Positions 1 through 48,431 of a stretch of 64,000 nt of DNA are shown here, piece after piece. Source of the stretch: Antedon mediterranea (lineage: Eukaryota; Echinodermata; Crinoidea; Comatulida; Antedonidae). Below the pieces are notes generated by a model. That model worked only from the letters and a program-made list of their open reading frames with translations, did no database searches and was not told the origin of the DNA. The DNA lies in assembly GCF_964355755.1 (NCBI RefSeq), contig NC_092674.1:4221001-4285000 (forward strand). Reading direction: 5' to 3'. Position 1 is the first letter of the stretch; each line of letters begins with the position of its first letter. Both the position numbers and the translations under genes were made by a program.

Positions 1-747
1 GTACAACAATTGTGTCCATGAATAAAAAAATAATTACTGAATTCTGAAAAGCTTTATTTGTCCATTATCATAATAAAATAACAATAGAAATTCTTCAAAA
101 CAAATGGTATTCTAGAAAACACGCTCCAAATCAGTTATCAAGATATTTGCGTTTCATAAAACCAAACGTTTTCTACTAGTCTAAAATAGTCGTTTGTGTA
201 TACATTTACCGCGAATATATTCCTGAAATTCATTTTTATATTCATATATGCGTAGTTGAATAGGCCCAAATGCCATTTACACTAACTAATTCGGTAACGG
301 TAAGCGAAAAGCAATAGAATCTATGTTATTTCCTATGAGCATTACGCGGAGCAGACGGGAGGTTGAGCGGAAATGCACAGGATAGATACAGATTTTTCCA
401 GGGGAAAGCTACGTAATTTCCCATACCGTTACCGCTCGTTCATGTATAAATTTAAAGCGAATATATTCCTGAAATTCAGTTGTATATTCATATATGCGTA
501 GTTGGCAGGTTAATACTCGTATTGTGATTAGCAATGATACTTCAACGGAATTCCGAAATAGACATACACGAGCCATGAGCGAATAATTTATGAAAATCAG
601 TATTAGGCCACTCCTCTTCACTTCTGGTGATACAATCCATTAGTACATATTGCGTACGAAAGTTCTAGGCAGATTTGTCGAACATGAGGATGGTGTGTTG
701 TTAGGATTAGTTGTGTCTCGTAGGCCGATGAAACTGACGAAAATACT
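1..747. other. Upstream intergenic DNA with a 48-bp direct duplication
   Basis: No coding region seen. A 48-bp block starting GCGAATATATTCCTGAAATT occurs at 211-258 and again at 457-504 with few differences. Otherwise AT-rich sequence with no recognisable promoter for the receptor gene that follows. Confidence 0.5.
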
Positions 748-1689
748 ATGATGACTTGCCTATTCAAGGGCATCTTTAGGACCTATCTTCATTACATTCG
801 TGTTTTGGAAACTAACAACAATGCAACGATACCCGAATGGCTCGAAACCACAGACCAATTCGATCGTATCCTTGCGTCTATCATATTCCTGATTTCTTTA
901 GAAGTTGTAGTATCAAATATACTGGTACTGCGCACGCTCATCAGAAGTTCTCGCGTGCGCACGAAGAGGAACATCGTACTGTGCAGTTTAATACTATCGT
1001 ACATTTCAAACGCAATCGTTTGGTGGGTCCTTCTATTCGTAAATTCATCAATCATAACAATTCGACTAAATTATTGTCTGGTTGCGATATCGTTTCTGCA
1101 TATACCGACGATCGCTATAGATCGCTACATTGCTATTGTAAAATCACCGGCTAAATATCCTTTCCTGATGACGAGAAATAAGTACATTATTCTCTGTGCA
1201 TTTTTATGGATCAGCGTCATGCTTATGTTTCTTTTATTTTCTATTATTGAACCTTTTCGATTTTACGGAGAACATCTAGCGGCTCAAGTGCTGTATCTGT
1301 ATACGTTTATATGTGTTGCGTTTGTGTATAAACGTATATACAGTTTGCTAGCGACAAGAGAACGAAAACTGAACGATAAGAGAGTGGTGCATTCGATTAG
1401 TCGGACCCGAAGTCGCCTGGGATTGTTCGCAGCAATATTTACGGTTATGTTTATATGTCACACGCCAATGACGATTTTATGCATCATTGCAACAATTGGC
1501 GGCATTGAAATCTGTTATAATCCGTGGTTTTACTGTTTTTTTGTAGTCGGTTGGTTGTTTCTGGCCTTTGCACCGGCCATCAACCCGTTTGTCTACGTTT
1601 GGCGTTTGCCCGGATTCCAAGCAGCGTTTACAAACAGTATTAAATTAAAACGATACAAACCAGCAATTGATAAAGACACGGTATCGTAA
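748..1689 (+). CDS. Intronless class A (rhodopsin-like) G-protein-coupled receptor
   Basis: A 313-aa open frame with seven hydrophobic segments. Seen directly: an N-glycosylation site in the short N-terminus (NNNAT), the TM1 Asn in SNILVL, a TM3-end AIDRYIAIV (the DRY motif), and TM7 INPFVYVW (NPxxY) followed by the amphipathic helix-8 segment RLPGFQAAF. The TM6 CWxP motif is changed to CHTP. The usual TM3 disulfide cysteine position reads Ser, and extracellular loop 2 has no Cys. That loss is known in the melanocortin/EDG/cannabinoid group, and helix 8 resembles adenosine/melanocortin receptors. Ligand and subfamily cannot be named. It acts at the plasma membrane through G proteins by family analogy. 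The stop codon overlaps an AATAAA hexamer (1689-1694). Intronless structure is usual for lineage-expanded invertebrate GPCRs. The start is the first of two adjacent Met codons and is not otherwise supported. Confidence 0.85.
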   Translation: MMTCLFKGIFRTYLHYIRVLETNNNATIPEWLETTDQFDRILASIIFLISLEVVVSNILVLRTLIRSSRVRTKRNIVLCSLILSYISNAIVWWVLLFVNSSIITIRLNYCLVAISFLHIPTIAIDRYIAIVKSPAKYPFLMTRNKYIILCAFLWISVMLMFLLFSIIEPFRFYGEHLAAQVLYLYTFICVAFVYKRIYSLLATRERKLNDKRVVHSISRTRSRLGLFAAIFTVMFICHTPMTILCIIATIGGIEICYNPWFYCFFVVGWLFLAFAPAINPFVYVWRLPGFQAAFTNSIKLKRYKPAIDKDTVS

Positions 1690-30310: not shown

Positions 30311-30340
30311 TAAATAAATGATTTTTTCCCCTAAAACAGA

Positions 30341-32555
30341 ATGGCAAGTTTCATTAGTTTGAGGAAGGTTGTTTCGTGTCAACTAAGCAGAAGATGTATG
30401 TCTACGTCGACCCTTTTGAGACAGAGTAGCAATGGGCACTCTTATGGCGGTCTCTGCGATGGAAAGTCACAAAATAGATACCAACACAAACAGAAGCTTG
30501 ATCACGTGAGATACCAATCGTAAGTTGTAGCAGTTGTAGCGACATTCACACCCACTTAACACGTGGAGTAGAACATTTGAATGTAACAATACCTAAATAC
30601 ACCCTTAGTAAAATTAATTCGTCCTTTAAAGTTGCAGGCGCAAAAATATGGAACAGTTTACCAATTAATATTAAATCGGCACCAACAATTACGTCCTATA
30701 AGGCTAGATACAAATCTCATTTCTTTTCATAAACACTGTATTATATTTAATTAAGTTTTTCTTTTTGATTAAGACAGGACCACAATGTAAAACAGACACA
30801 CTGTTATCTGATTGTTTTATCCTGTATAAATATATTATTTATTATTATTATTATTTATAATTTATATTTAAAAAGTATACCGTTTTAGGCTCTGTCTACA
30901 CTCTCAAACTTTATGTAAAAAAAAATGTGATTTGGACACGATGATGTCATATTACTACAATATTTGGGCACATCACATTTTTTTCTCATAATTGTTGATA
31001 GTGTATACAGAGCTTTAGGCATATGTACCATTCGTTAGGTTTTGAAAATGGAAAGATAATTGTTTTATGAGCGCTTGGTTTAAAAACCTTACAGTGGGCA
31101 GTATTTTCCAATATTATAATAGTATATTTAATGTTCAAGTTTCACCGTCTGACGTAAATAATTAGAACGATCTTTTTTAAAATGTGGCATTTTCTATTTT
31201 ATTTGTATTTTGTTGACTTTTAGGACTTAGGCCTATGTACTTGTATATATGCTCATTTTTAATTTGTGCTGCAAAAAGCCGAACATATAGGCCTAATTAG
31301 TTATCTTTCGTTCATTCTAGAAATAAGCCGAAATCGGCTGACGATACGATAAGCGTCTCAATGTCAAACCGCCAGAGGTACATTAACAATAACGTACTGG
31401 AAACCATAGACCTATCACCTTTGGACGATATACACAAAGATGGTGTTTTCACACGCAACATTGAGAACTACATTGGTACCGTGAAGATTCCAATCGGGAT
31501 GGTCAACGTCGACGTAAATGGTATGTACGCCAAGGGATCTTTCTCTGTCCCTATGGCTACAACTGAAGCTGCATTAGTAGCTTCCTATTCCAGAGGCTGC
31601 AAATTGGTTTCTGTCTGCGGCGGAATCAACACCGTTGTCGTGGAGAAAACCGTTCAGCGAGCTCCAGAATTCCTGTTCGCTAACATTTCTGACGCAAACA
31701 TATTTTACCGGTGGTTTAACAGACCAGAAATGTTTGATAGAATTAAAAAGGCTGCGGAGACTACGACCAATTATGGAAAGCTAAAAAAGACCGCAGCTAC
31801 CTTACATGGTAATAAAGTACTTACTAAGTTTATGTACGAAACTGGTAACGCATCCGGACAAAATATTAGCACATTTGCTACCAATGTTGCTATTACGGAG
31901 TTTCTACAAGATTCTCCTATTCAACCGCAGAAATGGTGGCTGGATGCCGGCGGTTCGCAAGATAAGAAAGCGTCGAGTGGTCTTTTCAACAACTCCAGAG
32001 GTGTCTACGTCACTGGTGAAGTCATCTGCCCTAAAGATGCTGTTGAACAGATTTTGAAAACAACAGGTAGGCCTACTTATTTTAACCATCTTAATTTATA
32101 ATATTCCACGTTTTTTTTAAACTAATTTTTAAAAGCAACTACTATACTATATTATTTTATTTATTACAGTTGATAATTTGAATGAAATCAGCGAATCAGT
32201 GACGATTAGTCAGTATATGCAAGGAGTGACCGGTAAGTTGTCTCGTGGCAATTAATAACTGTACCTTTGTTTGCATTGCGCCCCGTCACGTTTTTCTACG
32301 AGGAGCAAACAACGAGTAACTAAATATATAATTTTACATGAAAAAATATATACAGAGTAGTACTGTTATCTTGTAGGGGGTGAAAAAGGATTTTACCAGT
32401 ACTGTGTTATCGGATAAGGCCCGACGTGGTTTTATAATTAATTTATAAAATTATAAATAAAGTATTGCAAGCTATACAATACTGTACTTTGTACTTCATT
32501 CTTAAGCTCTGTCTACACTATCAAACTTTATGTGACAAAAAATGTGATGTGCCCA

Positions 32556-32587
<32 letters not shown>

Positions 32588-33084
32588 AATCCAAAGGCAA
32601 ATTACTGAAAAAAATGACAATGCTGTGGGTATCAGTGGCTGGATCTCAATGGAGATACAAAAATAAAAAGCGAAAAGCTAAATCAAAACGATAAAGTAAA
32701 CAGCCAGAAAAGTTAGCAGAGCTTTCGGGCAACACTAGCCCTTCATCAGTGCAAGTGAAGGAATTTGGATAACGTCAGAGTATAAAGCTGGCAAGTGCTG
32801 CCTGGGTGGACAGGAATAAAAGAAAGAAATATATATATATATATATATATTTGTTTAGTCTCATTCCAAAATTGTTTATATCTCTACCAAGCTACCTTCT
32901 TTGTTTTCCACTCTTATTCAGACTCCACCCTGGCTCCCTTTGTTATATTTCTTTTATTCCTGTCCACCCAGGCAGCACTTGCCAGCTTTATACTATGACG
33001 TATACTTTTTATTTTTGTATCTCCATTGAGATCCAGCCACTGATACCCACAGCATTGTCATTTTTTTCAGTAATTTGCCTTTGG

Positions 33085-33155
<71 letters not shown>

Positions 33156-34766
33156 TACCATATTTAGGTATACCATCACCATATTTGGAAACATCAAACT
33201 TTTTTGTCAAACTAGTGTAGTATAAAGTGTAGACAGAGCTTAGTCTATGTTATCAACACTGTAATGTACCGAGACCGCCGCAATCTGTCGCAACATTCTG
33301 TTTGTTTAGAATATATCATTTATACATACACATTTTCGTCTAGCCTGTTCAAATAAAGATTATGATAAAAATAGAAAACAAATATGCTGCTTTTGTCTAT
33401 TGTACTATTTTAAGATATAGATTAAACGTGACATTGAAATTGAGCTTTTATTACCGTTATAAATAAACAACTTTAAAAACGGCAGATTGATTATGAGCGC
33501 GTTCAAACTAAAGCTCTGTCTACACTATCAAACTTTATGTGACAAAAATATGATGTGCCCATATAGACAAGATAGTGTCATATCACTACCATATTTGAGC
33601 ATATCATTACCATATTTGGTCTCATCACATTTTTTAAACTAGTTTGATAGTGTATGCCCCAAGTCTGTAGTTATTGTCTATTTTATGTCAATCAACCAGT
33701 CGGCGTTTCGATTTTTGCCTGAGTAATACGAACTCACTGTGTATTATACGTATGGAACGCCATATGTGCCAACATACTTTTTACTAATTTTGGTCTAGAA
33801 CCTAGACTAGTTCAAACTATACAATACTGTATAATAATTTATATCTACTGCGTTCTTACGCGCATGTGCAGTGATCACTGCTTTAGTCGCGCCAATATTG
33901 AAGTATTTGAAATATAATAGTATAGGCTATAATAGTAGTACTATAGTAGTAAAAATGTCAATATTAATATACCACCCTAACCCTTTTCAGTTATCCTCAC
34001 ATTCATTGTAATACCTGGTAAACTAGAGAGTGGATTATTATTATTTTACGATGAGTTGACTTATTGTTTGAGTGATAATTACAATGATTCGGTTATTATA
34101 TATTTTTTTCTTCATAATATAGGATTAACTTGTCACGCCGCTAATGCATTGACCGCCATTTTTATCGCGTGCGGACAAGATGTTGCTTGCGTTGTCGAAT
34201 CTCATGTTGGCGTCACAGAGATGCGCAAGACACCAGAGGGTGATCTTAGGGTACGCCTAACCATACCGTCAATGATGATTGGAACCGTTGGAGGCGGTAC
34301 AGATCTACCTTCTCAAAACGTAAGTTTATTGAAATTAGATAATGTAATTACCAAAATTTGAAAGGTTTTGTATATCATATCATACAAGTTTACTTCCTAT
34401 TAGGACGTAAGCCCGCCGTATATAATTTGACCAATCACGATGAGATGGATCATCCGAACTTTTGATTTTGATTGGTCAACAAACCTACGTGGCGCCTGTA
34501 TGTCGTTGCGTTGCGTCCAAGTAGAAAAGTATAAACGACAATTGCACGCGACAGAATATTTTGTTTACCGTCTAGCCTTTCTTGTATTTTAGACGTGTCT
34601 TAGTATGATACAACTGCCCGAAGAGAACAGTCGAGATGCATTAGCTGAGGTCATAATGGGCGTGCTTTTGGGCGGAGAACTCTCTCTCAGCGCCGCAATG
34701 ACGGCGCATCATTTTTCAGCTGCTCATAAAAAATTCGCCAGAAGTGGAGTCACGAAACGGGTTTAA
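30341..34766 (+). CDS. Gene A: soluble HMG-CoA-reductase-like protein with mitochondrial-type presequence
   Basis: Exons 30341-30519, 31321-32066, 32170-32232, 34123-34319, 34593-34766; 452 aa; AATAAA at 34856. Residues 1-35 contain no acidic residue, have five Arg/Lys and an RRCMSTS cleavage-like site, as in matrix targeting peptides. The catalytic domain follows: ENYIG (108-112), MATTE (138-142), SRGCK, GNASGQN (235-241), QDKK (273-276), HAANALTAIFIACGQD (334-349), IGTVGGGT (382-389), GGELSLSAAM and H440. Known family catalytic residues Glu559, Lys691, Asp767 and His866 (human numbering) correspond to E142, K275, D349 and H440. Differences: no membrane or sterol-sensing domain, GDAMGMN is changed to GNASGQN, SGNYCTDKK is shortened to GGSQDKK, and the KNLVGSA lysine is absent. 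Probable NAD(P)H-dependent acyl-CoA reductase of unknown substrate. The start matches gene B, whose first coding exon has the same length. Introns hold MITEs and retroelement pieces. Confidence 0.88.
30559..30732 (+). pseudogene. Non-LTR retrotransposon ORF2 C-terminal remnant (CR1-like), gene A intron 1
   Basis: One open frame reads VEHLNVTIPKYTLSKINSSF, then KVAGAKIWNSLPINIKS, ending in a stop. This is the usual reverse-transcriptase-ORF tail (f.v.ga..WNSLP..i) of CR1/Jockey-type LINEs. Everything upstream is missing, which is the typical 5' truncation. Confidence 0.8.
30889..31018. repeat. MITE family 1 copy, gene A intron 1
   Basis: GGCTCTGTCTACACTCTCAA ... ACGATGATGTCATATTACTA ... TTGATAGTGTATACAGAGCT. 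Confidence 0.85.
32587..33090. mobile_element. Inverted pair of Penelope-like terminal repeats with hammerhead-like core
   Basis: Minus-orientation copy 32587-32835 and plus-orientation copy 32915-33090 share TCCAAAGGCAAATTACTGAA, TGTGGGTATCAGTGGCTGGA, ATTGAGATCCAGCCACTGAT and GTCCACCCAGGCAGCACTTG in opposite orientation. On the minus strand of the first copy, CTGATGA (32749-32743), stem GGGC/GCCC (32741-32738 with 32730-32727) and GAAA (32726-32723) form the core layout of a hammerhead ribozyme. The second copy has deleted this part. Such ribozymes are established in Penelope-like retroelements. No reverse transcriptase is present here. Confidence 0.55.
33088..33152. repeat. (TA)n microsatellite
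   Basis: About 32 uninterrupted TA units. Shorter tracts at 32562-32586 and 32828-32850 flank the other ends of the inserted repeats. Confidence 0.95.
33513..33820. repeat. MITE family 1 copy abutting a reverse MITE family 4 copy, gene A intron 3
   Basis: 33513-33655 runs AAGCTCTGTCTACACTATCA to CTAGTTTGATAGTGTATG. 33655-33820 (CCCCAAGTCTGTAGTTATTG ... GGAACGCCATATGTGCCAAC ... GGTCTAGAACCTAGACT) is the reverse complement of family 4. Confidence 0.8.
34385..34530. repeat. MITE family 2 copy, gene A intron 4
   Basis: TTCCTATTAGGACGTAAGCC ... TTTGACCAATCACGATGAG ... TTTTGATTGGTCAACAAACC ... GTTGCGTTGCGTCCAAGTAG. Confidence 0.8.
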
Positions 34767-35109
34767 AAAGTGTTTGGAATAGAACATATACTATTAAAGC
34801 ACATATTATGTATTATGACAATGTGTGTTGTGATGTTTGAACATAGACATGAAACAATAAACAAATACATGCTATGTTTACTATTAAGTGTATTAAAATC
34901 ATATTAATTAATTAATATACTTGCACATACGGCACTAGGTATCCTAAAGTTCACGAAAAAAGGTAATTGGCATCCAAGTTAATATCGTATATGAAGTGCA
35001 GAATCTACCACTATTCTGCTGCAGTAAGTTCACTTTTTAATTGTTTCATTGTATTTATGTGGTTTTTGATTGATCAAAATGATCGGAGAATAGAAACAAT
35101 CTTGCATTG

Positions 35110-35265
35110 CAAGCGTTGGTTCTACTTCGTGATTGGTTAAAACTTGCAAAATGGTCGTATTGCAGTACGGTTTGTTTCTGTTCTGTGATTGGTTGAAAGT
35201 TGTAAACGTTGGCTCGTCCCCCACTTTAATAAGTTTATGGTTCTGCTTTGTGATTGGTTAAAACG
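35110..35265 (+). repeat. Three spaced GTGATTGGTTRAAA repeats downstream of gene A
   Basis: TTCTNNTTNGTGATTGGTTA occurs with GATTGG at 35131, 35187 and 35252 (spacing 56 and 65 bp), all as inverted CCAAT boxes on the same strand. They are part of a degenerate tandem unit (TTGGTTCTRCTTYGTGATTG). A similar GTGATTGGTTAATGAATT lies near 16567. Confidence 0.6.
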
Positions 35266-35612
35266 TTTTGAGAGGGCGACAAACAAACATTGAGCTACTT
35301 CGCACAACCCTGGCATAGCAGCAGAATCACAATAATTTGATATAATAGTAAATAAGCTTGACCGATAGTACAGTGTTTTGCGGTTTATTATATACATATA
35401 TTTTACATACCACACGTTAGATAATCTTGGGTAAAGTAAACCATTGTGTAAATACATACATCAATCGCCTTAATATCATTCCTTAACAATAACTGTAATG
35501 CATAAATTTATAATATTGTAATAAAGATTAACCATACATTTGTATGTTGACCGGCAAGTACATTATGGACGTGGATTGACTTAGGAAGATTTACTTAAAA
35601 CGTTTAACTTAC

Positions 35613-35687
35613 GTATATCACTACCATATTGGGACACATCAAACTTTGTTGTCAAACTAGTGTAGTATAAAGTGTAGACAGAGCTTA
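35613..35687. repeat. MITE family 1, right half only
   Basis: ATATCACTACCATATTGGGA ... AACTAGTGTAGTATAAAGTG then TAGACAGAGCTTAAG. Nearly the same as the right half at 33152-33241, including the odd GTGTAGTATAAAGTG variant, so the two share a source. Confidence 0.85.
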
Positions 35688-36289
35688 AGTCTATGTTATC
35701 ACCACCTAATAATGTTACCGCCGCAATCTGTCGAAACATACTGTTTAGTTACTTATTGTGTAGAAGAATTGAGAAAGTAACACCCCCGCCCCGATTAAAT
35801 GTTATATTTAAGCAGTAGTATTAAACGTATGTAAAGTAACTGTATATTATTAAGATAGGATAAGTGTAGTTTCTGTAAATAATATTGTACGTCATTTTAA
35901 ATTTTAATTACCGTTAATGTGGATACAGTATAGTGTGTAATATTAGTATGTATTTTATTCAATAAGGGAAGATAATAAATAAAACTAATTATTACAAAAG
36001 AAGTGAAGTCATTGTTAAATTTTTCGATTATCGATGTGTAACTCTCCTCCTGGGCTTAGTGTATCATAAAGAAATTTATTTTGTTAAAATCTTATTTCAA
36101 CAATATTTTACGAGGGTGGTCCATCCAGCCGAAGCTGATCATTAGGGACCCTCACAGAAATACATCATGACAAGACATAAACATGTAACAACAAAAATTA
36201 AATTAAAATAAATATAATTTATGAAGATAAAATAAAGCACAAACAATTTAAAATCAAAAATTAAATAAATAAAATTAAATTGGCCATTT

Positions 36290-36460
36290 GATAAAATGGA
36301 AGTATCTAAACAAGAAGATAGTCCTTGAGCAGAAATTTGAAGGAAAAGGGTAAGATGAAGCAAGTCGGATATCTAAAGGAAGAGAATTAAAAAAAGTAGG
36401 AGCATTGAAGCTAAAGGACTGTTTGAACAGTTCCAAGTAAGGTCTGGGTATAATGAGATC
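36290..36460 (-). pseudogene. CR1-like LINE ORF2 C-terminal remnant
   Basis: Reading the minus strand from about 36460 gives NGDLIIPRPYLELFKQSFSF, then NAPTFFNSLPLDIRLAS. This is the reverse-transcriptase-ORF tail typical of CR1/Jockey LINEs. 5' truncated. Its lower-coordinate side (36140-36290) is AT-rich and resembles the 3' UTR. Confidence 0.75.
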
Positions 36461-37642
36461 ACCGTTAGTGATCTGCTGTGTGGCCTGCAGCCATTAGATG
36501 TGATCTTAGCAAGTAAATAAATAGCATTATTATTAGACGATATTTTTCAGTACCTTTGCGCCGGTCTTCACCCCTCTTTTTTTCCCATTAGTCACCCCTC
36601 TTTTAATCCTTCAGTCACCCTTCTGTTTTTCCAATCAAACCTCGCCCACCCACCCCATAATCCATTCACCCAACACCGCGTTCTTTGATTTTAAGGTTAC
36701 CGACAAATGAACCGTACTCATTCATATACATAGTCTTTACTTATGTTTTTATAGTGCTATTCTAATTAAATATCCGATTTCGGAGCATTTTGGTAAACTT
36801 ATTTTTCAATATTTAATTTTGATTCAAAGATTTTGTCGTCTTTTGAATGTTAAACAATTTTCAACTATGTGAACTTTATCTGGTACCATTTATAGGTCCT
36901 GTTTGATTGTATTTTTAATGGCAGATAATGTTTGCTTAGCCAAGTCCTAAACAAACATTAGCACCTTGTTGAAATAGATATAATTATGATAATGTATTGT
37001 GTGAAAAGTAACATTATATATAGCTTTTATGTGTTATTTTTAGACAACGGTTCATGATACATACTATTATCATTCGTTATAGGCGTGTACAAGTTTGAAA
37101 CTTTGGACCAACATCAATGTCATAATTATTATGGACCTATACTTTATGTTTATGCAGTTTATGTATACAGATCCCACTCGAAATAATAATAATAAGAAAA
37201 AAAACCCATTAACAAACAAAAATATTAACGCACTTAAATAACCACTCTTTTTTTATGTAGTAAGCCTGTATAGTAAAGTTACTATTTTAAAATCAGGTGA
37301 TTACCGAACTTTGAAAATCAAGAAATAATTCCTTTAATTTCTTTCCATTAAATTAGTTAATGTGTCACTAGGCAATGTGTGCCAATTATATGTGTTTATA
37401 ATTTTAGTATTGTTCTATTTGACAATCTTGTGATAAAAATCACCAGATTTTCTGTTCGATCTATCGAGCCGATCCTTATCACTGAACTTCGAAACTTCCG
37501 AATAGATCTATAAAAATTATTATCTGTCAAGAGGTAGTTGGATAACTGGACTAAAATATCCTTTGAAGGTTGACATATTGATTATCAGCACTGACTTATC
37601 AGTATAAATTGGTACAATGTTCTAAAAATACATTGCTTGCAA
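36461..37642. other. Gene-free AT-rich stretch between genes A and B
   Basis: No gene or clear repeat found. Confidence 0.4.
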
Positions 37643-38980
37643 TACAGTGCAAACACATCAGCAATCGTAACTCTAAATTTAGAAACATCGAATTCTAAAA
37701 TTATAATATGTTACTAATTTTGGACTGAAACCAAAATGTTTGCAGAAGATAAAATGGGCGTATGGATTAATGGAGATATTAATGTGCAATGTATCTAATG
37801 TTCTAATTCTGTACTTTGAACAAACGTCATCTCTTAGAAACATCGAATACTAAAATTATAATGTGTTTCTAATTTTAGACTGTAACCAAAATGCTTGCAG
37901 AAGATAAAAATGAGCGTATGGATTAATGGAGATATTAATGTGCAATGTATCTCATCTGCTAATTCTGTATTTTGAAAATTGAATGAGAGATTTATATTAA
38001 ATTTTCATTACTATTTCTGTTTTATTTCTTTATTTATCCACACTCGTAAACAATTTCAAGACCAGGAAAGAGTGGTATTTTAACTTAAAAGTTACGGTTA
38101 TTTTATTTGTTTACCCTTTCACGTGATCCTTCGAAGTGGGTTCATCACATCACAATAAACATATCAATACGACTTAGGTGTCACATTTTTAAGCGTATGA
38201 AGACGAAAGGAAGTATCGGAATATAGAATGTATTTTTACATAAAATATAGTAAATAGGTCGAACAAACGCAGGTCTAGTGTCTCTTAAGCGTGGTTCCCA
38301 CTAGCGACGCAACGCAATTGGACGTAACGCAACGCAAGTGAATTGGCCAATCACAGGCGATGGCTTATTCGCTTGTGATTGCTACCGGTCTATAACTTCG
38401 CTTGTCATTGGTTAAAACGCTTGCGCTGCGTTTACGTCCTTGCGTTACGTTCAAGTGGGAACCAAGCCATCGCTTGTGATTGGTCAATTCACTTGCGCTG
38501 CGTTACGTCCTTGTGTTGCGTCGCTAGTGGGAACCACGCTTAAACAATACTACTATTCATATACAACTATACATTTATCTAACCAATAGGAAACGCTACT
38601 TTTGTATGTTGTGTACTGTGTTCATTTTAAAGTTTATCTGATTGCTTGTGATTTCTAGTTTTACTTTACCGTAATATTTTCGGAAGATGACAGAAAAAAA
38701 TAAACTGTATTGGGATTGATCAACTAGTGCTCTCTAGAGTTGGATAAACGTCTACCTAATTATAAACAAATGAATGAATATCTAATATAAATCTCTCATT
38801 CCAATTTCAGTACAGAAATTAGTAAATGATATACATTGCACATTATCTCTATTAATCCATACGCCCATTTTTATATTCTGCAAACATTGTGGTTTCAGTC
38901 TAAAATTAGTAACATATTATAATTTTAGCATTCGATGTTTCTAAATTTAGAGTTACGATTATTGATGTGTTTGCACTGTA
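37643..38980. mobile_element. ~1.34 kb foldback element with ~190-bp inverted arms
   Basis: The ends TACAGTGCAAACACATCA and TGATGTGTTTGCACTGTA match exactly. The arms continue with CGTAACTCTAAATTTAGAAA, TTATAATATGTTACTAATTT and GTATGGATTAATGGAGATAT and their complements at 38785-38975. The left arm is partly duplicated (second copy 37833-37984). The centre contains a compound MITE family 2 copy (38287-38541). No coding frame. Confidence 0.8.
38287..38541. repeat. Compound MITE family 2 copy nested in the foldback element
   Basis: AAGCGTGGTTCCCACTAGCG at the left and CGCTAGTGGGAACCACGCTT at the right are exact complements. Inside lie two or three CCAAT-core segments and an internal end AAGTGGGAACCAAGC. 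Same organisation as 6590-6790. Confidence 0.85.
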
Positions 38981-39961
38981 CTATTGATAACTGATAGTAA
39001 GTAAATGCACCTGAGTACGTCCATGCCCTTTCCGAAACCTAAACATTCTTCTAAAGTTTTTCGCATATTAATGCGAAAACCTATAGTTGATAGTACTAGT
39101 TTTCTTTTTCATTCGGGACATTATTTGGTGGTGGTGGTATTAGGATTGGTCAACTAGGTATCTCGACGTTGTGAAGAATGTCTACCCACTAATTGATGGT
39201 AACTAAATTCACCCGAGACCTTTTTCCACACCAATAGTTTGTTCTCTTTTCGCATTAATAATGGTAAACATCTATAATAGTATTAGTTTTTTTTTCGTCG
39301 AGAAGTTATCTTAAAAGATAATATATATATATATATATTTTTTCTTCCATCAATTAAAACAGCCATATATAATTGAACCACTACTTTGAACATTTGCCAA
39401 GTGGCTGTTTGATGCTGAATTCCTATTGGTTGGTTCTGCACCTGTTGTTAATAATATGCTAATTAGGTTAAATACAGAAATATCAAGAAGTCGTCGTATG
39501 ATTAGCAAAACGACTCATGAGATGTGGTAAGCGTATCTTAAGTTATAAATAGACACGTTGATATTATTAGATAATACATAATCAATAAGATTATTGTGTT
39601 TTAATATTTCAAAATAGATTATAGAAGGTCGTTGACCGATGAATGAACTGTTTTCGTAACTCTTACCGTATTATTGATGGCCGATCCTCACAGATACAGT
39701 AGGCATTTGTGAAATTCAATCAAATAATTACATCAGAATATATAGAAGTTTGAATTAAACTTTCCTCCTTTGCATTTGTTGTATACTAAGATGAAAGGCC
39801 ATGCTTGTATTAAAAAATAATAAACAACGATGTTAGATCAGAAAAAAACTCTTTCTGAAGAATGAAATGAAAACATGTCTAACAACAGAATAATATCTTC
39901 ATTAAAATTAGAGTAAACATGTTTAACATGTTTATGACAACAACCCTTAGATCTGATCATT

Positions 39962-40400
39962 AGTTGCCCCAAAGGTAGTTGCCCCAAAGGTAGTTGCCCC
40001 GGAGGTATTTGCCCCAAAGGTAGTTGCCCCAAAGGTAGTTGCCCGGACGGTATAGTTGTTAGTGTAATTGTCCAGGATGTTGCCCGATAACTGAAAAGAT
40101 GCGGTTTAATAAACAACATGAACCACCACTGACTAACTGTAGGTAGTTGTTTTTATCATTGTCCAGGGGGGTTGCCCGATAACTGAAAAGATGCGGTTTA
40201 ATAAACAACATGAACCACCACTGACTAACTGTAGGTAGTTGTTTGTATCATTGTCCAGGGGGGTTGCCCGATAACTTAAAAGATGTGGTTCAATAAACAA
40301 CTTTACGAACCACCACCAACTGTAGGTAATTGTTTTGTTTGTGTAATTGTCCAGGGGTTGCCCGATAACTTAAAAGATGCGGTTAAATAAATAAATAAAT
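39962..40400 (+). repeat. Two tandem arrays upstream of gene B (15-bp and ~92-bp units)
   Basis: 39962-40055: six copies of GGTAGTTGCCCCAAA. 40068-40400: four copies of a 91-96 bp unit starting TTGTCCAGGGGGGTTGCCCG, then ATAACTGAAAAGATGCGGTT. Ends about 90 bp before the TATA box of gene B. Confidence 0.85.
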
Positions 40401-40491
40401 AATATATTTACATGAAACACGTTACCAGTGTACCTGTAGATAATGCTACCTTATCGGTCATTGACTGCGCATGTTCCGTGACTTCACAATG

Positions 40492-40530
40492 TATAAAACC
40501 CTTTCGAGACGTGATACGGATATCATTCAG
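40492..40530 (+). promoter_or_regulatory. Candidate core promoter of HMGR-like gene B
   Basis: TATAAAA at 40492-40498, with an initiator-like TCATTC at 40523-40528, about 31 bases downstream. This predicts a 5' UTR of about 65 bases to the ATG at 40591, with no intron. An in-frame ATG at 40471 lies upstream of the TATA box and is therefore unlikely to be used. Confidence 0.55.
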
Positions 40531-40590
40531 TGTTACCAATTATTACAAAATACGCGTTGTAAAAACTGGTCTAAGGATAACTGCTTGACA

Positions 40591-43500
40591 ATGTCGAAGT
40601 TAAGGATTTTGAGCAGAACAGCAACTAATGTTAATTCGTTTGGTCGATATTTTTCTACGAGCGTTTTGAAACAGAGCAGCGCAGGCGATGATGCTGACTT
40701 TAACGCACGAAAATCATTTCATAAAGTGTCGAACAAAGCCACCGCTGATATCCAAGTTAGAAACCAATCGTAAGTACTAAAATAATATGTAAGCATTTCT
40801 TTGAAAGAGAGAGAGAGAGAGAAATTAGATTTTACGATAGAATACAAGGGCGGGTCTGTGATTTCTTGAAAAAGGAGAACGGATAATGGGCGGCTCTCCC
40901 ATATCCGCGCCTGCTGCAGCTGTATGTAGTTTTTATCCTAACCGCACGTTCAGTATATAGCTTAAAGCTCTGTCTACACTATCAAACGTTATTTAACAAA
41001 AATGTGCCCATATAATGACATGATGATGTTCATAATTAGTTATATTTCACCATATCAGATTTGTTACTGTGAGGAATTTGTTTGTGGAAAAGAATATTCC
41101 ATCATTTTATGAATATTTGAGGATTTCGACTTACCGATTTCTTACAAGAATAATGAAAAGCGAAAACAGAATGTTAATTTGTATATACAAATATTTATTG
41201 ATGGATTCAAACATGTACTACAAATGGAGAGAGGCATATACCAATAGATAAAAGTTTTGGTCCTCTCTCCTTCATCTTTTTTGTTTTCTTTGTAATGCAT
41301 TATACCATATGGACAATTGTCTAAAATAAAAGTTGAATTGAATTGAATTGAATATCCCACCTACACTATTGTTATAGTACTTTGTGTTTTCCACCGATGT
41401 AAAGCTGTAATTCCCAATAATTGATTAATTGATATCTACTTTTCCATGTAATTTGTCGTTTTAGTTATAGGCCTATGAAGTTACTTTCTTATAGCCATAA
41501 TCACTTATATCGATATTAAACAAGTATTTGTGATACTCAGTATGCTAATAGAGTATTTGAATATGTGTGGTGAAATGCCGTAAATATATCATAGCTATAT
41601 ACTTTAAAATAACTTCTTACTTTTTCTAGAAACCAGGCTGAGTCAGCCACTGCTACTAGTGTGTCACTTAACAATAGAAACATGTACATCAACCAAAACG
41701 CGTTGCGTAATGTTGACCTATCACCGTTGGACGACATGTACAATGATGACACGTACACACGTAGCGTGGAAAAGTACATCGGAACTGTTAAAGTCCCAGT
41801 TGGGATGGTTAACGTCGACGTAAATGGCATATACGCAAAGGGATCATTCTCTGTGCCTATGGCTACAACTGAAGCTGCATTAGTGGCATCCTACTCAAGG
41901 GGCTGTAAGCTTATCAGGGCATGTGGAGGAGTCAACACAGCAGTTATCGGACAGACAATTCAGAGAGTTCCAGAGTTCATATTTCGCAACCTACCCGACG
42001 CGTACACTTTTTTACAGTGGTTTGATCGCCCCGAAGTCTTTAACGCTTTAAAATTGGCTGCCGAGAGTACAACAAACCACGGTAAACTTATTAAGATAGT
42101 ACCTAACTTACATGGTAATAAGGTTCATGTGAAGTTTTTGTATGAAACTGGAAACGCGTCTGGCCAGAATATCAGTACATTCGCTACCAATGCAGCTATT
42201 ATGAATGTTCTTCCCGAATGCCCTATTCAGCCAGAAAAGTGGCTGCTGGAAGCAGGTGGTTCGCAAGACAAGAAGGCTTCAATTGGGTTTTACAACAATT
42301 CTAGAGGATTGTATGTCACTGGTGAGATGGTGTGCCCAAAAGAACTTGTTGAAAGTATTCTAAAAACATCAGGTAAGTTTAGCCAAACTGTAAACAACCA
42401 CCTATCTATTTTCGCAGGTAACCATCTACGTTCAAATCTAAGATTAAATTCAGTATCCTAAGTTGAATCATTAGAGAAAAGGACTAAATAAATAAAATCC
42501 CTGTTGACTGAAATTACTTTCTCTAATCTAAAATGCGTTAATAAAGATAAGGGTAATAATGTTTAATGTTCTGAATTTATTTTGGCAGTTGATAACATGA
42601 ATGATGCCAACGAGTCGACACTTATGAGCTTATACATGCAAGGAGTAACAGGTACGTCACGTGAATGTTACGTAATAATGATCTTAATAATGTTGGAATA
42701 AAAGTAGACAGACATTTCTAATTCCCTTCATACTTACTACTAAGTTTATTTCAATACGTGCTTTGTACACAACTTTGATAAAACTGCGCAAAGCTTGTTC
42801 GTCAATTTTTTTTATTTTGGTAATGTTTAAAATGGTGATATATTTGTACAATTTGAGTGATTTATTTTTGTATTGTAATATATTTCAGGATTGACATACC
42901 ATGCATCCAATGCCCTGGCCGCCATCTTCATCGCATGCGGACAGGACCCTGCCTGCGTCGCCGAAAGTCATGTTGGCGTGCAAGAGGCGCGTAAAACACC
43001 AGAAGGCGATCTAAGACTTCGAATAACGATGCCATCCTTAATGGTGGGAACAGTTGGAGGGGGAACATTCCTGCCTTCACAAAGGGTAGGTTTTATGATT
43101 TATTTTGTCCAGAACTCAACTGTCAATGAACACTTGTTACGGACCTTATTTAGTTTAAACAACATTTAAAATAAAGTCCTGTAGTAGTAGCCAACGACAG
43201 ACAGTGATGTGCGCCTTGGTTGGACCTCAGTGTTGTAGTAAGCATATAGCGTTTGGGGTGTCTCGGCAGCCTAATTATGGTCCTGACACTTTAAAAAAGG
43301 TTTGTTTCACGACACTCGTTCTGTTTTACCACTGACGAAAATTTAGTTCAATTATTATTAATTATTATATTTTATAAAACAAAGAAATGTTATCCCGGAG
43401 TTACCCTTTAACATAATGTATTTGTGTATTACAGACTTGTCTTGATATTGTGCAACTTCCAGAAGAGAAAAGTCGACTTGCTTTTGCTGAAGTTATATTG

Positions 43501-43608
43501 GGCGTTATATTAGGAGGAGAACTGTCAATTGCGGGCGCTATGACTGCACATCATTTCTCATCAGCCCATCACAGTTTGGCTCGAAAAGGGAACGGAGTAA
43601 GAAAGTAA
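40591..43608 (+). CDS. Gene B: second HMG-CoA-reductase-like protein with mitochondrial-type presequence
   Basis: Exons 40591-40769, 41630-42372, 42589-42651, 42889-43085, 43435-43608; 451 aa; possible polyA signal ATTAAA at 43782. Four of the five exon lengths equal gene A's (179, 63, 197, 174) and all intron phases match, so this is a tandem duplicate. By eye about two thirds of the catalytic domain is identical to A. The presequence contains SFGRYFSTSVLKQSS, with R at -3 before a likely F|S cleavage, a classic mitochondrial processing site. Catalytic set: E141 (MATTE), K274 (QDKK), D348 (ACGQD) and H439 (SSAH). The conserved GNASGQNISTFATN is identical in A and B. EKYIG replaces the ENYIG of A. 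The C-terminus ends LARKGNGVRK, lacking the serine A has at the position of human Ser872. Expected to act in the mitochondrial matrix; substrate unknown. Confidence 0.88.
40965..41040. repeat. MITE family 1, left half, gene B intron 1
   Basis: AAAGCTCTGTCTACACTATC ... ATGACATGATGATGTTCATA. Truncated at the right by a LINE 3' end. Confidence 0.8.
41180..41353 (+). repeat. LINE 3' end with (TTGAA)n tail, gene B intron 1
   Basis: TTTGTAATGCATTATACCAT, GACAATTGTCTAAAATAAAA and a terminal (TTGAA)4 repeat look like the 3' UTR and microsatellite tail of CR1-type LINEs. 5' boundary uncertain. Confidence 0.5.
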
Positions 43609-45307: not shown

Positions 45308-47760
45308 CTATTTTTTTTCTTCGCAAGGCTCGTATTCAAATTCCAGTCCCGTTCCGGTTAATGATTCTCTCAATACAGAATCTATCAGCTTGTTCTGCGC
45401 AACTGTAAAATGATTCATCCAATCGCCAACGCCACCTGGATGACGAAACAAATGATAAGTGTAACCCATATCAGCCTACTCTCATGTTTTGTAACAAATG
45501 TGTTTGTCGTCAGAGGATCAAAAGAGAAAAATCGAACCCACAACCTCCAGATTTACTAGCCTCTTGTATTCAAATGAATTGGGCCCACACTAGTCTAGGT
45601 TCCAGACAGAGTTTTGACTTAATATTAGTAAAAAAGATAAATATTTTGGCAAATATGGCGTTTCATACGTATACTACTTGAGTTCAGACAAACATCGAAA
45701 AGCCTCGAAATAACTACAGACTGGGGAAAGTCTAGGCCCACACGTAGGCCTACTTATGGGCGGAAGAAGTAGTAAAGGATCTCGTTGTGCGCCACAGTAT
45801 CATACTTAATTCAGACAATGACGTCATGTCCTTTACTTACCTTTTCTCATAAACGTAGAAACATTGAGGTCAAAGTCCGTGAGACCTGTGAAGTTGGCCA
45901 TCGGGTTCTTGCTCATCTTTTTGAAAGTACACTGATCGACTGTCTTCTGGAGGGCTTCTTCTGACAGGGTCTTTCCAAGATGATCGCATATTTTGATGAC
46001 GTTTCCTCGAAGATCCTGAATTGAATTATAGTTGATTTGTTTAGTCATTTATTCATTATGACGGCAGAATTTAAATGTCCCCGTAGTACTGCATTTATTT
46101 TCAGATATCGTTAAATCATTCTTTTCAATCGATATTATTACGGATATTTTTTTAAGAATTTTTTTTTACGGATAGATTTACGTTATTGTTGGTTTCCGAG
46201 TTGTTTCGTTACTAAATTATGTTCTGTATTAGACCTATAGTGAATGTACAGTTAATCTATATACCTAAACCTACTTACTCGCTTCATGTCTTCATATTTT
46301 AGAAAAAGAACGTTTTCATCATGGCGATTCTGCCACCAACTGGTTACGTGATGAACCCAAGATCCATACGGAGCTGTTTGATAAAAAATAAAAGAAGAAA
46401 AAACTAGGCCTACTTTATAGTATACCATAGCTTACAACTTCACACATTTTAATTTCGCTTAACCGAAACCTTTATTCATTTGGCCTGGGTTACAGATAAG
46501 TTTGCTTCGATATCTGGAAGCTGGAATATCAACAAGAAGTATCTTGACTGCTTTTGCTTTCTTTTAAACTTTGAACCGTTTCCTTTTTGTTCTGCGCTTT
46601 TATTCACTTTGTTATGTTCAGTCAAGTTGTTTGGGTTATGAGATCATAAAATAGTAATGCCACACTACAAAATTACAAAATGCGTATATGTAAATGAGAA
46701 ATGTATATTATATTTTGGGCAAACTCCCCTATACGCATGCGCGTATCCGTGTCTCCGTGTCACAACACGTATACGAATACGATTTAATTTATAGCGTTTT
46801 CCATTTGTGTAAAATCATTTTTGTACTGTACTCGATAGAGGGCTAAAGGTATATAAGGTTAGCCTGTCTAGCCTAGGCCTAGTCAACATTTTTTACTTTT
46901 TGTCGTTTTCTTGAAGCATTTTAATACTAAATCCTGTCTGAATTAAGTTTTGCTGATAAGTGATCTTTGCCACGTGTAACACTTTTGATTTTCAACGAAT
47001 AAATCTTAAACGTGTGAAATCCGCACGTCGATACGCACCGAAATCGCGTATACTGTATTGGTGTCACGCAACACAGATTGTGTGACGTAGTACGCGATTA
47101 TCCATACGTATACACGGAGGTTGCCCAAACTGATATGTAGGAGGCGCACTTACATTTCATGGGAATCATCATCTTCAACAGGTAATCCTCCCAACTACTC
47201 ATTCTGTCGTCATCACTATAAGCTTTGAACATCTTCAAAAAGTGGAACGCTGACACACAGATGTCTTTGTAGTTTCGTGCCACGTATACTGCCTATTATA
47301 TAGTACGTATAGCCTATTATACAGTACACGTATAGTGCCTATTATATAGTACGTATTATATAGTACATATATTGCCTATTATATAGTACGTATTATATAG
47401 TAGGCCTACATATATTGCCTGTTATAGTACAAAACCAATGAGTATTTTTTTAACCATTCTTGTTTTTTTCATCATCATCAACAACATCATCGTCGCCGTT
47501 TCGACGTCGTAGTTAACAACACCACCGTAATTGTCATCGGTGGTTATCAGAAAACATCAATGTGACCACCGTTTTTATTATATACTTATCCTCGTCATTG
47601 CTCCTTCTATGAGGTCATGATCAATCCTCATATGACGTCATAATCTATCCTACTATGACGTAATAATCTATCCTAATGTGACGTGTTCATCAATCTTCTA
47701 TGCTCATTACATCATCTTGATTGTTGTAGTCTACCGCCGCCATCATAATTTGTATCACCG

Positions 47761-47791
<31 letters not shown>

Positions 47792-48431
47792 TATCATCAT
47801 CATCATCCTTTATCATCGTCGTCGTCTTCGTTCTAATAAATTCGTCATTTTCAGTTGCTGCTGTTGTTGGCGTTATCATTACCTTTGCTTTTTTATTATG
47901 GAAATCAGGGGGCATCGTATCAAACGCCATGTGTGTTTTTATTAGTCTTGGTTTATCACGTGGCATGTTTGCAATCTTTTTAATTAGGATGTTGCCTGGT
48001 TTGGCTGTGCTCATTTCAAGATGTGGCACCCGTTCTTCAACGTGAATCGACGTAATCTTCTCAACGTCAGCCTCGTAATAAATCATTGAGACTATTTCCT
48101 GTAACCATGTTGTTCCTGTTAATTATAGATTGATTAAATATTGTATATCAATATTAATTGTATTTGTTTTTTCGATTTCTCCATTGTTATTTTCTCTATT
48201 GTTGAAGGCTATTGTCTTTTTTTAAAAGAAGCATTGTTTACCTGATTTTGGAAAAGATATAACGTAAACGTCATCATTTCGTACTTCAAACGTTTTCATC
48301 GCTTCAAGCGTACTTGCATGAACAAACCACGGGTATGGAACGCCATCGTAGACATGAAGACCAGACCCGGCCTGGAATTCAATATCAGGATGCTCAATTG
48401 ACGATTTGATTGAATCCTTACTTGCTGACAT
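45308..48431 (-). CDS. Cytosolic sulfotransferase (SULT family), six exons
   Basis: Exons in gene order on the minus strand: 48431-48242, 48115-47883, 47292-47154, 46373-46279, 46015-45841, 45435-45308; 319 aa, slightly longer than the usual ~295. It transfers sulfonate from PAPS to hydroxyl or amine groups of small molecules in the cytosol. Seen: the PAPS 5'-phosphosulfate loop PKSGTTW (61-67, split by intron 1), catalytic H125 in IKTHMAF, the 3'-phosphate motif ARNYKDICVS (R147, S155), the dimer-region-like FTGLTDFDLNVSTFMRKGG, and the C-terminal GVGDWMNHFTVAQN. In the usual RKGxxGDWK the final Lys is Met284, and the tail LEFEYEPCEEKK is unusual. Exon 3 must begin at GCAGTATACG (47292) to stay in frame. 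Its acceptor sits in a repeat. An acceptor-like TTCCTAG lies three bases before the ATG, so a 5' UTR intron is possible. The substrate cannot be read from sequence. Confidence 0.93.
45590..45735. repeat. MITE family 4 copy, downstream of the sulfotransferase
   Basis: TAGTCTAGGTTCCAGACAGA ... TGGCGTTTCATACGTATACT ... GACTGGGGAAAGTCTA. Lies in sulfotransferase intron 5. Confidence 0.8.
47285..47435 (-). repeat. ~20-bp minisatellite spanning the sulfotransferase exon 3 splice acceptor
   Basis: Repeated GCCTATTATATAGTACGTAT on the plus strand, six or more imperfect units. On the gene strand each unit reads AATAGGCA(G)TATACGT, so several successive units offer an AG resembling the true acceptor AATAG|GCAGTATACG. 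Confidence 0.75.
47755..47812. repeat. (TCA)n microsatellite in sulfotransferase intron 2
   Basis: A run of TCATCA units with few interruptions, 70 bp beyond the exon 2 donor. It would read as poly-Asp on the minus strand but lies outside the exon. Confidence 0.9.

Follow-up and report, generated by a model that had tools for sequence, protein, structure and literature searches.

A tandem pair of bacterial-type HMG-CoA reductase-like genes with putative mitochondrial leaders in Antedon mediterranea

Two adjacent genes, A and B, in the 64,000-nucleotide stretch of Antedon mediterranea DNA analysed here (the window) encode proteins of the HMG-CoA reductase family that group with bacterial proteins, apart from the canonical HMGCR of the same genome. 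For this bacterial-type HMGR-like clade the name GQN-type is coined here. The reading we favour, at somewhat better than an even chance, is that A and B are functional enzymes of the GQN-type, soluble and NAD(P)H-dependent, that reduce acyl thioesters, with a substrate probably other than ordinary HMG-CoA, a bacterial or early-eukaryote source and probable import into mitochondria.

Gene A (30341-34766, with coordinates as in the preliminary description) and gene B (40591-43608) lie on the forward strand and have five exons each, encoding proteins of 452 and 451 aa. In the splice model of A, exon 1 (30341-30519) contains the start ATG and the leader, exon 2 (31321-32066) the bulk of the catalytic domain, and exons 3 (32170-32232) and 4 (34123-34319) are followed by exon 5 (34593-34766), which runs to the stop. 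The exons of B are located at 40591-40769, 41630-42372, 42589-42651, 42889-43085 and 43435-43608 (to the stop), the first beginning at the homologous start ATG; two more in-frame ATGs are found upstream of it, at 40489 and 40471. All the introns are GT-AG with the same phases in both genes (0,2,1,1,0), and exon 1 measures 179 nt in each. The proteins are 64% identical, and the proposed duplication was supported. As an AG immediately 5' of the ATG of A (30338-30339) is a possible splice acceptor, this gene could have an upstream exon.

Both proteins matched Pfam HMG-CoA_red over residues 74-444 (E values of 4e-94 for A and 5e-92 for B), so that, with the five-exon models, the proposal of two neighbouring reductase-family genes was borne out. 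The four catalytic residues (E559, K691, D767 and H866 in human numbering) were present in A and B, as previously noted. The Glu is found in PMATTEAALVAS (31550-31585 in A, followed by a clade-marker Ala, and 41856-41891 in B), the Lys in WWLDAGGSQDKK of A (31934-31969) and WLLEAGGSQDKK of B (42240-42275), the Asp in exon 4 (within 34164-34202 and 42930-42968) and the His in exon 5, within MTAHHFSAAH in A (34698-34727) and MTAHHFSSAH in B (43540-43569). A (276 bits) and B (260 bits) scored below the curated cut-off (441.8 bits) of NCBIfam TIGR00533, the class I or NADPH HMGR model, against which five bacterial relatives reached 322-337 bits, and also below that of the class II model TIGR00532 (41 and 34 bits, cut-off 259.95).

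Regarding membrane segments, Kyte-Doolittle windows of 19 residues above 1.6 numbered one in A (336) and five in B (409-414), all within the catalytic domain, and no sterol-sensing domain match was listed on C5, the contig that carries the window; this negative is moderate evidence, because the same search also missed the sterol-sensing domain of the canonical HMGCR, with its small exons. Both results agree with the soluble nature proposed for these proteins. A and B share with the canonical class I HMGRs of animals, plants and archaea the sequence family, the catalytic residues, the ENxIG start and GTVGGGT, but lack the membrane and sterol-sensing part, are altered at S684, M655, M657, P693, Q770 and K735, and belong to a separate clade.

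The same genome carries on another contig (C11) a conventional HMGCR, complete with its sterol-sensing domain, and three further paralogues of A and B (A2, C and D) were also detected. In a maximum-likelihood tree of 89 rows, the five animal paralogues formed one clade (100/99) and were separated, along with 80 bacterial proteins, from the canonical HMGRs (own C11, vertebrate, plant and archaeal) with 100/100 support. In this tree the row of C is partial (its exons 1 and 3 were not found), the exon 1 used for D is the likeliest of the candidate frames, the canonical HMGCR row is without one exon, and the bacteria are the best 80 of 143 by similarity to D. The same split (100/100) was recovered in a reduced tree of 37 rows without C, A2 and 50 of the bacteria, and an AU test rejected the grouping of A, B and D with three eukaryotic HMGRs (p 0.00107). 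The preliminary description had considered that both proteins could fall within the animal HMGCR clade, with the conventional gene missing elsewhere; instead, the conventional gene is present and A and B stand outside that clade. Its framing of a soluble, duplicated, catalytically complete enzyme distinct from HMGCR was maintained, but not that of a departure from the animal enzyme, as A and B are more aptly described as an enzyme family of bacterial type occurring in an animal lineage. It is barely conceivable that they arose from the animal's own HMGCR by duplication, divergence and loss of the membrane part: the Pfam family is common to both, but that origin is rejected by the AU test under the model used, and the marker residues common to the 80 bacteria are absent from the own HMGCR. 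Decaying pseudogenes or bacterial contamination would fit the loss of the catalytic lysine in A2 and C, which are probable pseudoenzymes judging from this loss, but for A and B this is very improbable given their open frames, their introns, their location in a multi-megabase contig and the core dN/dS of about 0.12 (dN 0.218, dS 1.77, the latter near saturation), with both genes under purifying selection. The assembly comprises 354 Mb (354.4) in 18 contigs, with no match for COX1. A sponge source of the window, raised by the demosponge enzyme of PMC4784904, was set aside in view of let-7, which occurs once as an exact copy with an Rfam precursor, and of a miR-2013 string, likewise single and exact, in a strong hairpin (z -5.06), although this site matched no Rfam family. 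Viral carriers were also considered, and a viral-contig scan gave 32 pattern stretches, of which 0 were confirmed.

The GNASGQNISTFATN signature described earlier was found in both genes (31844-31885 in A and 42150-42191 in B), where canonical enzymes have GDAMGMNM. The markers of the clade are TTEA, G(D/N)A(S/A)GQN, Glu or Asp at position 684, DKKA, C770 and the absence of K735, and every one of them is shown by A and B, with Asn instead of Asp at 653. The bacterial states M657Q, P693A, S684E/D and M655S/A (80/80 each) and Q770C (79/80) are common to A and B. Position 684 is occupied by Asp in A (within WWLDAGGSQDKK) and by Glu in B (within WLLEAGGSQDKK), and no residue aligned at K735 either in exon 3 of both genes or in any of the 80 bacteria. 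According to PMC9500038, Ser684 and Lys735 are contacts of the HMG carboxylate, with which Lys735 forms a salt bridge. When the 80 bacteria were taken together with A, B and D (83 rows), 61 rows had some Lys or Arg within 728-745, none of them A, B or D, and 58 of the 80 bacteria carried Arg two places ahead of the K735 site; such residues might stand in for K735 in the bacteria. The HMG-carboxylate pocket has probably been rebuilt in the clade, as judged from these residue changes.

The bacterial relatives, 39-46% identical to D among the best 80 of 143, are uncurated proteins from cyanobacteria, Rhodobacterales, Photobacterium, Verrucomicrobiota, Planctomycetota and other groups; in the available part of a paper on bacterial HMGR diversity (PMC13370337) the word 'cyanobacteria' appears 0 times. 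They share clade and signature residues with A and B, but are intronless, have a shorter N-terminus and, in 48 of the 72 loci with sufficient flank, are followed downstream by genes for UbiA, PPDK/PEP-utiliser and DUF3419 proteins. No match for PPDK_N or DUF3419 was found anywhere in the animal genome. Among 50 enzyme-bearing bacterial genomes, 46 had a single HMGR-family match, and HMG-CoA synthase PF08540 exceeded its curated cut-off in 2 of the 50. As the PF08540 control missed two archaea having HMGR, the archaeal-type TIGR00748 was also searched, with 0/50 genomes above cut-off, such that 48/50 had no HMG-CoA-synthase match above either cut-off; weak TIGR00748 matches in 50/50 genomes, and in E. 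coli too, presumably correspond to related condensing enzymes. Since Ser684 is replaced and Lys735 lost, HMG-CoA synthase is rare, and the gene context is that of UbiA, PPDK and DUF3419, the substrate is probably other than ordinary HMG-CoA, and for A and B plausibly another acyl-CoA. On the other hand, the remaining HMG-contacting residues (R590, D690, K692, H752 and N755) are intact in A and B, so HMG-CoA or a close analogue could still be accepted.

The preliminary claim of acid-free leaders was supported, with 0 acidic residues and 5 Arg/Lys among residues 1-30 of each protein, the first acidic residue appearing at position 40 in A and 33 in B. The presumed presequences would end after residue 20 in A (30341-30400) and 21 in B (40591-40653), at RRCM↓STS and RYF↓STS, which we take to be presequence cleavage-type motifs. 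However, when the whole proteins were shuffled, a first acidic residue this late still appeared in 2.5% of cases for A and 5.6% for B, for which reason the leaders are regarded as no more than suggestive, and a hydrophobic-moment test on them gave no significance (P of 0.80 in A and 0.08 in B). The first 32 residues are without acids in A, B and A2, and the leader evolves fast (dN 0.56 vs. 0.22 in the core, between A and B). Compared to a bacterial median of 83 residues before ENxIGTV (n=80), A and B have 106-107, that is, 23-24 more. In the D model, whose exon 1 is uncertain, positions 4 and 7 are acidic. The A/B/A2 branch may be imported into mitochondria.

Two other explanations accept functional enzymes. 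The proteins could be true matrix HMG-CoA reductases that convert mitochondrial, leucine-derived HMG-CoA into mevalonate as in trypanosomatids, whose HMGR acts in the matrix, where leucine yields HMG-CoA, according to PMC5993337. The intact catalytic and remaining HMG-contacting residues also agree with this, but the changes at Ser684 and Lys735 throughout the sampled clade, the lack of synthase matches above cut-off in most enzyme-bearing bacteria and the scores below the NADPH HMGR cut-off make it unlikely, at about one chance in four. Less likely still, A and B could be GQN-type soluble reductases of the cytosol whose leader is not a presequence; the weak leader statistics, the acidic start of the D model and the putative cytosolic location of the bacterial relatives point in this direction, against which A, B and A2 have kept 32 acid-free residues despite fast leader evolution, and A and B the additional residues before ENxIGTV.

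Under the favoured reading of imported, non-HMG acyl-thioester reductases, Glu559, Lys691, Asp767 and His866 would, by analogy with the family, turn an acyl-CoA (or acyl carrier) into a primary alcohol by four-electron reduction via a bound aldehyde, and the pocket changes would make another short acyl thioester the probable substrate. The gene would have entered the animal's ancestor from bacteria, or via an early eukaryote, and have duplicated at least four times; it has introns. Against this reading, the 89-row tree places the animal sequences, on long branches, as sister group of the full set of 80 bacteria (99/83) and not inside a donor group. The leader of A, B and A2, longer than the bacterial N-terminus, would probably direct mitochondrial import.

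The preliminary description had called this an undescribed branch. Precedents have been reported, however: a second, prokaryote-like HMGR from demosponges, Capsaspora and certain fungi (PMC4784904), and the trypanosomatid enzyme of the mitochondrial matrix, which makes mevalonate for sterols (PMC5993337). Compared by description alone, the demosponge enzyme resembles A and B as a prokaryote-clustering enzyme beside the ordinary one in an animal, but is reported as class II and as lost from other metazoans; the trypanosomatid enzyme resembles them as a family reductase in the matrix, their putative location, but differs in its product. No bilaterian soluble bacterial-type HMGR and no account of the four-gene cluster appeared among the titles and abstract starts listed by the searches of open-licence literature. 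With less confidence, at somewhat under even odds, we propose a bilaterian mitochondrial four-electron acyl-CoA-to-alcohol reductase of bacterial origin, with a non-HMG substrate and five genes including the two probable pseudoenzymes, catalysing a step unknown in animals and forming part of a widespread clade of bacterial reductases with a conserved gene cluster. If true, the occurrence and expansion of the enzyme in a bilaterian, perhaps with import into the matrix, would mean an extra step in the acyl-CoA or isoprenoid metabolism of animals. A single purpose is usually assigned to the HMG-CoA reductase family, and a large clade with altered HMG-carboxylate contacts, in bacteria mostly without HMG-CoA synthase, suggests an additional reductase reaction. 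HMG-CoA reductase is also the target of statins, to which GQN-type enzymes may respond differently.

Genes A and B were modelled on the forward strand with exons at 30341–30519, 31321–32066, 32170–32232, 34123–34319 and 34593–34766 (A), and at 40591–40769, 41630–42372, 42589–42651, 42889–43085 and 43435–43608 (B). Once joined, the exons read open through 452 codons in A and 451 in B, the introns were GT-AG with phases matching between both genes, and Pfam HMG-CoA_red spanned the catalytic domain of both proteins (E 4e-94 for A, 5e-92 for B), which are 64% identical. The tandem pair proposed in the preliminary description was thus borne out, and A and B are real genes, whose core is under purifying selection (dN 0.218; dS 1.77, near saturation). 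Among solved structures, the top match of B by sequence was the archaeal HMGR 6hr7 (207 bits vs. 158 bits for the vertebrate enzyme).

When the assembly (354 Mb, 18 contigs, window included) was searched for HMGR, 20 exon-level matches were found and assigned to six genes: A, B, a canonical HMGCR on contig C11 and the paralogues D, A2 and C. The C11 gene carries GDAMGMNM, DKKPAAVNWIEGRGKS, QDVAQN and KSHMKHNR in its exons and its joined N-terminal pieces match the sterol-sensing domain (E 1.3e-9), so that the ordinary HMGCR is present, against the possibility raised earlier that it could be missing. Paralogues D (C4, 11.38 Mb; exon 1 a best guess) and A2 (C4, 28.25 Mb, minus strand; L011:4160–7060) share the five-exon layout and phases of A and B. 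A2, a relative of A with a GC donor in intron 3, has an open frame of 435 residues in which the DKK catalytic stretch is lost and no residue aligns with the catalytic lysine. In paralogue C (C3, 25.88 Mb; L010:3032–8900), Lys691 is replaced by Arg and His866 by Lys, and the C-terminal tail is acidic and lysine-rich. Both A2 and C look like pseudoenzymes or decaying genes, C being a probable pseudoenzyme.

Bacterial relatives were confirmed at 143 places in the genome collection, and the best 80 of the 143 were kept. In a careful maximum likelihood tree of 89 rows, the five animal proteins formed a single clade (100/99), which together with the 80 bacteria stood apart from the animal's own HMGCR and from vertebrate, plant and archaeal HMGRs (100/100). 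The animal proteins were sister to all 80 bacteria (99/83), on long branches, and therefore no donor group could be named from the trees. A reduced tree without C, A2 and 50 bacteria gave the same split (100/100), and there the animal proteins branched from a polytomy among the bacteria. Constraining A, B and D to group with three eukaryotic HMGRs was 47 log units worse and was rejected (AU p 0.00107), which argues against the other possibility considered earlier, a placement inside the animal HMGCR clade.

Residue states (human HMGCR numbering) were scored in these best 80 of 143 bacteria plus A and B. At position 684, Ser in the canonical enzymes, 72 of the 80 bacteria have Glu and 8 have Asp; all 80 have Gln at 657 and Ala or Ser at 655 (canonical Met at both) and Ala at 693 (canonical Pro), and 79 have Cys at 770. 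A and B have the clade states at each of these positions and retain Arg590, Asp690, Lys692, His752 and Asn755. The Lys735 stretch is shortened, and the aligned residue is absent in 80/80 bacteria and in A, B and D. As judged from these alignments, the clade departs from canonical HMGR at substrate-relevant positions, and the simplest reading is that its members would be reductases for another, possibly related, acyl thioester. Against this simple reading, an Arg lies two places before the Lys735 site in 58/80 bacteria and some Lys or Arg is found within 728–745 in 61 of 83 rows (none in A, B and D), which might stand in for Lys735.

HMG-CoA synthase was searched for in 50 of the 80 bacterial genomes. 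PF08540 was over cut-off in 2/50, with a weak match in a third; in a control, 4 of 14 known genomes were positive and Methanocaldococcus and Sulfolobus were missed, though both have HMGR, so the archaeal-type TIGR00748 was added. This was over cut-off in none of the 50 genomes (best 79 bits, 353 needed), and its weak matches, present in all 50 and also in E. coli, are presumably related condensing enzymes. The bacterial genomics fits the reading of another acyl thioester as substrate, a question that is directly testable. HMGR-family matches numbered one in 46 of the 50 genomes and two or three in 4: G001 has two, G015 three, and the Bacteroidota genomes of L066 and L089 a second, lower-scoring one (G031:C8:40730 and G049:C49:97365).

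Gene neighbourhoods were counted in the 72 of 80 loci (L014–L093) with at least 3.5 kb downstream, partners being scored by tblastn and given Pfam names from one representative per cluster. Downstream of the HMGR-like gene and in its orientation, a UbiA-family gene was found in 54/72, a PPDK_N/PEP-utiliser gene in 54/72 and a DUF3419 gene in 49/72; the three occur together in 48 loci, and none of them in 17, including 6/6 Photobacterium loci. This four-gene cluster (for instance L062:3770–9030 and L065:4001–9034) is kept across many phyla, and its gene order and strand suggest a putative operon; no paper on it was found among the literature matches listed. PPDK_N and DUF3419 searches of the animal genome gave zero matches. 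Neighbour-gene clusters, each named by Pfam from one representative, also contained an AMP-binding ligase near the HMGR-like gene (L041, L049, L060, L071, L072, L074, L078), with a GNAT gene in 4 of these seven loci, and an opposite-strand cytochrome P450 (L040, L051, L057, L062, L080, L082).

The leader of A and B evolves faster than the core (dN 0.56). As had been described, it is free of acidic residues; the acid-free run spans 39 (A) and 32 (B) positions and is matched in 2.5% and 5.6% of shuffles, respectively; an amphipathicity test of both leaders was not significant. Ahead of ENxIGTV there are 106–107 residues in A and B for a bacterial median of 83, an excess close to the presumed presequence length (20 residues in A, 21 in B), and RRCM|STS and RYF|STS are, we assume from known presequence motifs, cleavage-like. 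A mitochondrial location is plausible, though unproven. The model of D has no acid-free leader of this kind.

The animal genome holds let-7, with its Rfam precursor, and a miR-2013 hairpin, which, given the distribution of these microRNAs, point to a bilaterian host and to ambulacrarians or kin, respectively. Demosponges are described in PMC4784904 as having two HMGR genes, of which one groups with prokaryotes, is related to genes of Capsaspora and of some fungi, and is called class II and lost from other animals; a passage of PMC5993337 states that a matrix HMGR is peculiar to trypanosomatids. Given these accounts, the "undescribed branch" proposed at first calls for qualification, and A and B extend the known cases, perhaps correcting them. 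They differ from the demosponge gene, as reported there, in being found in a bilaterian and in scoring 41 (A) and 34 (B) bits against the class II HMGR model, whose cut-off is 260.

The window also contains a single-frame rhodopsin-family 7TM receptor (724–1689, plus strand), a sulfotransferase exon (47712–48122, minus strand), 27 copies of TAGGCCTA vs. about 0.6 expected by base composition, and six copies of the 20-base string CTCTGTCTACACTATCAAAC, counting both strands.
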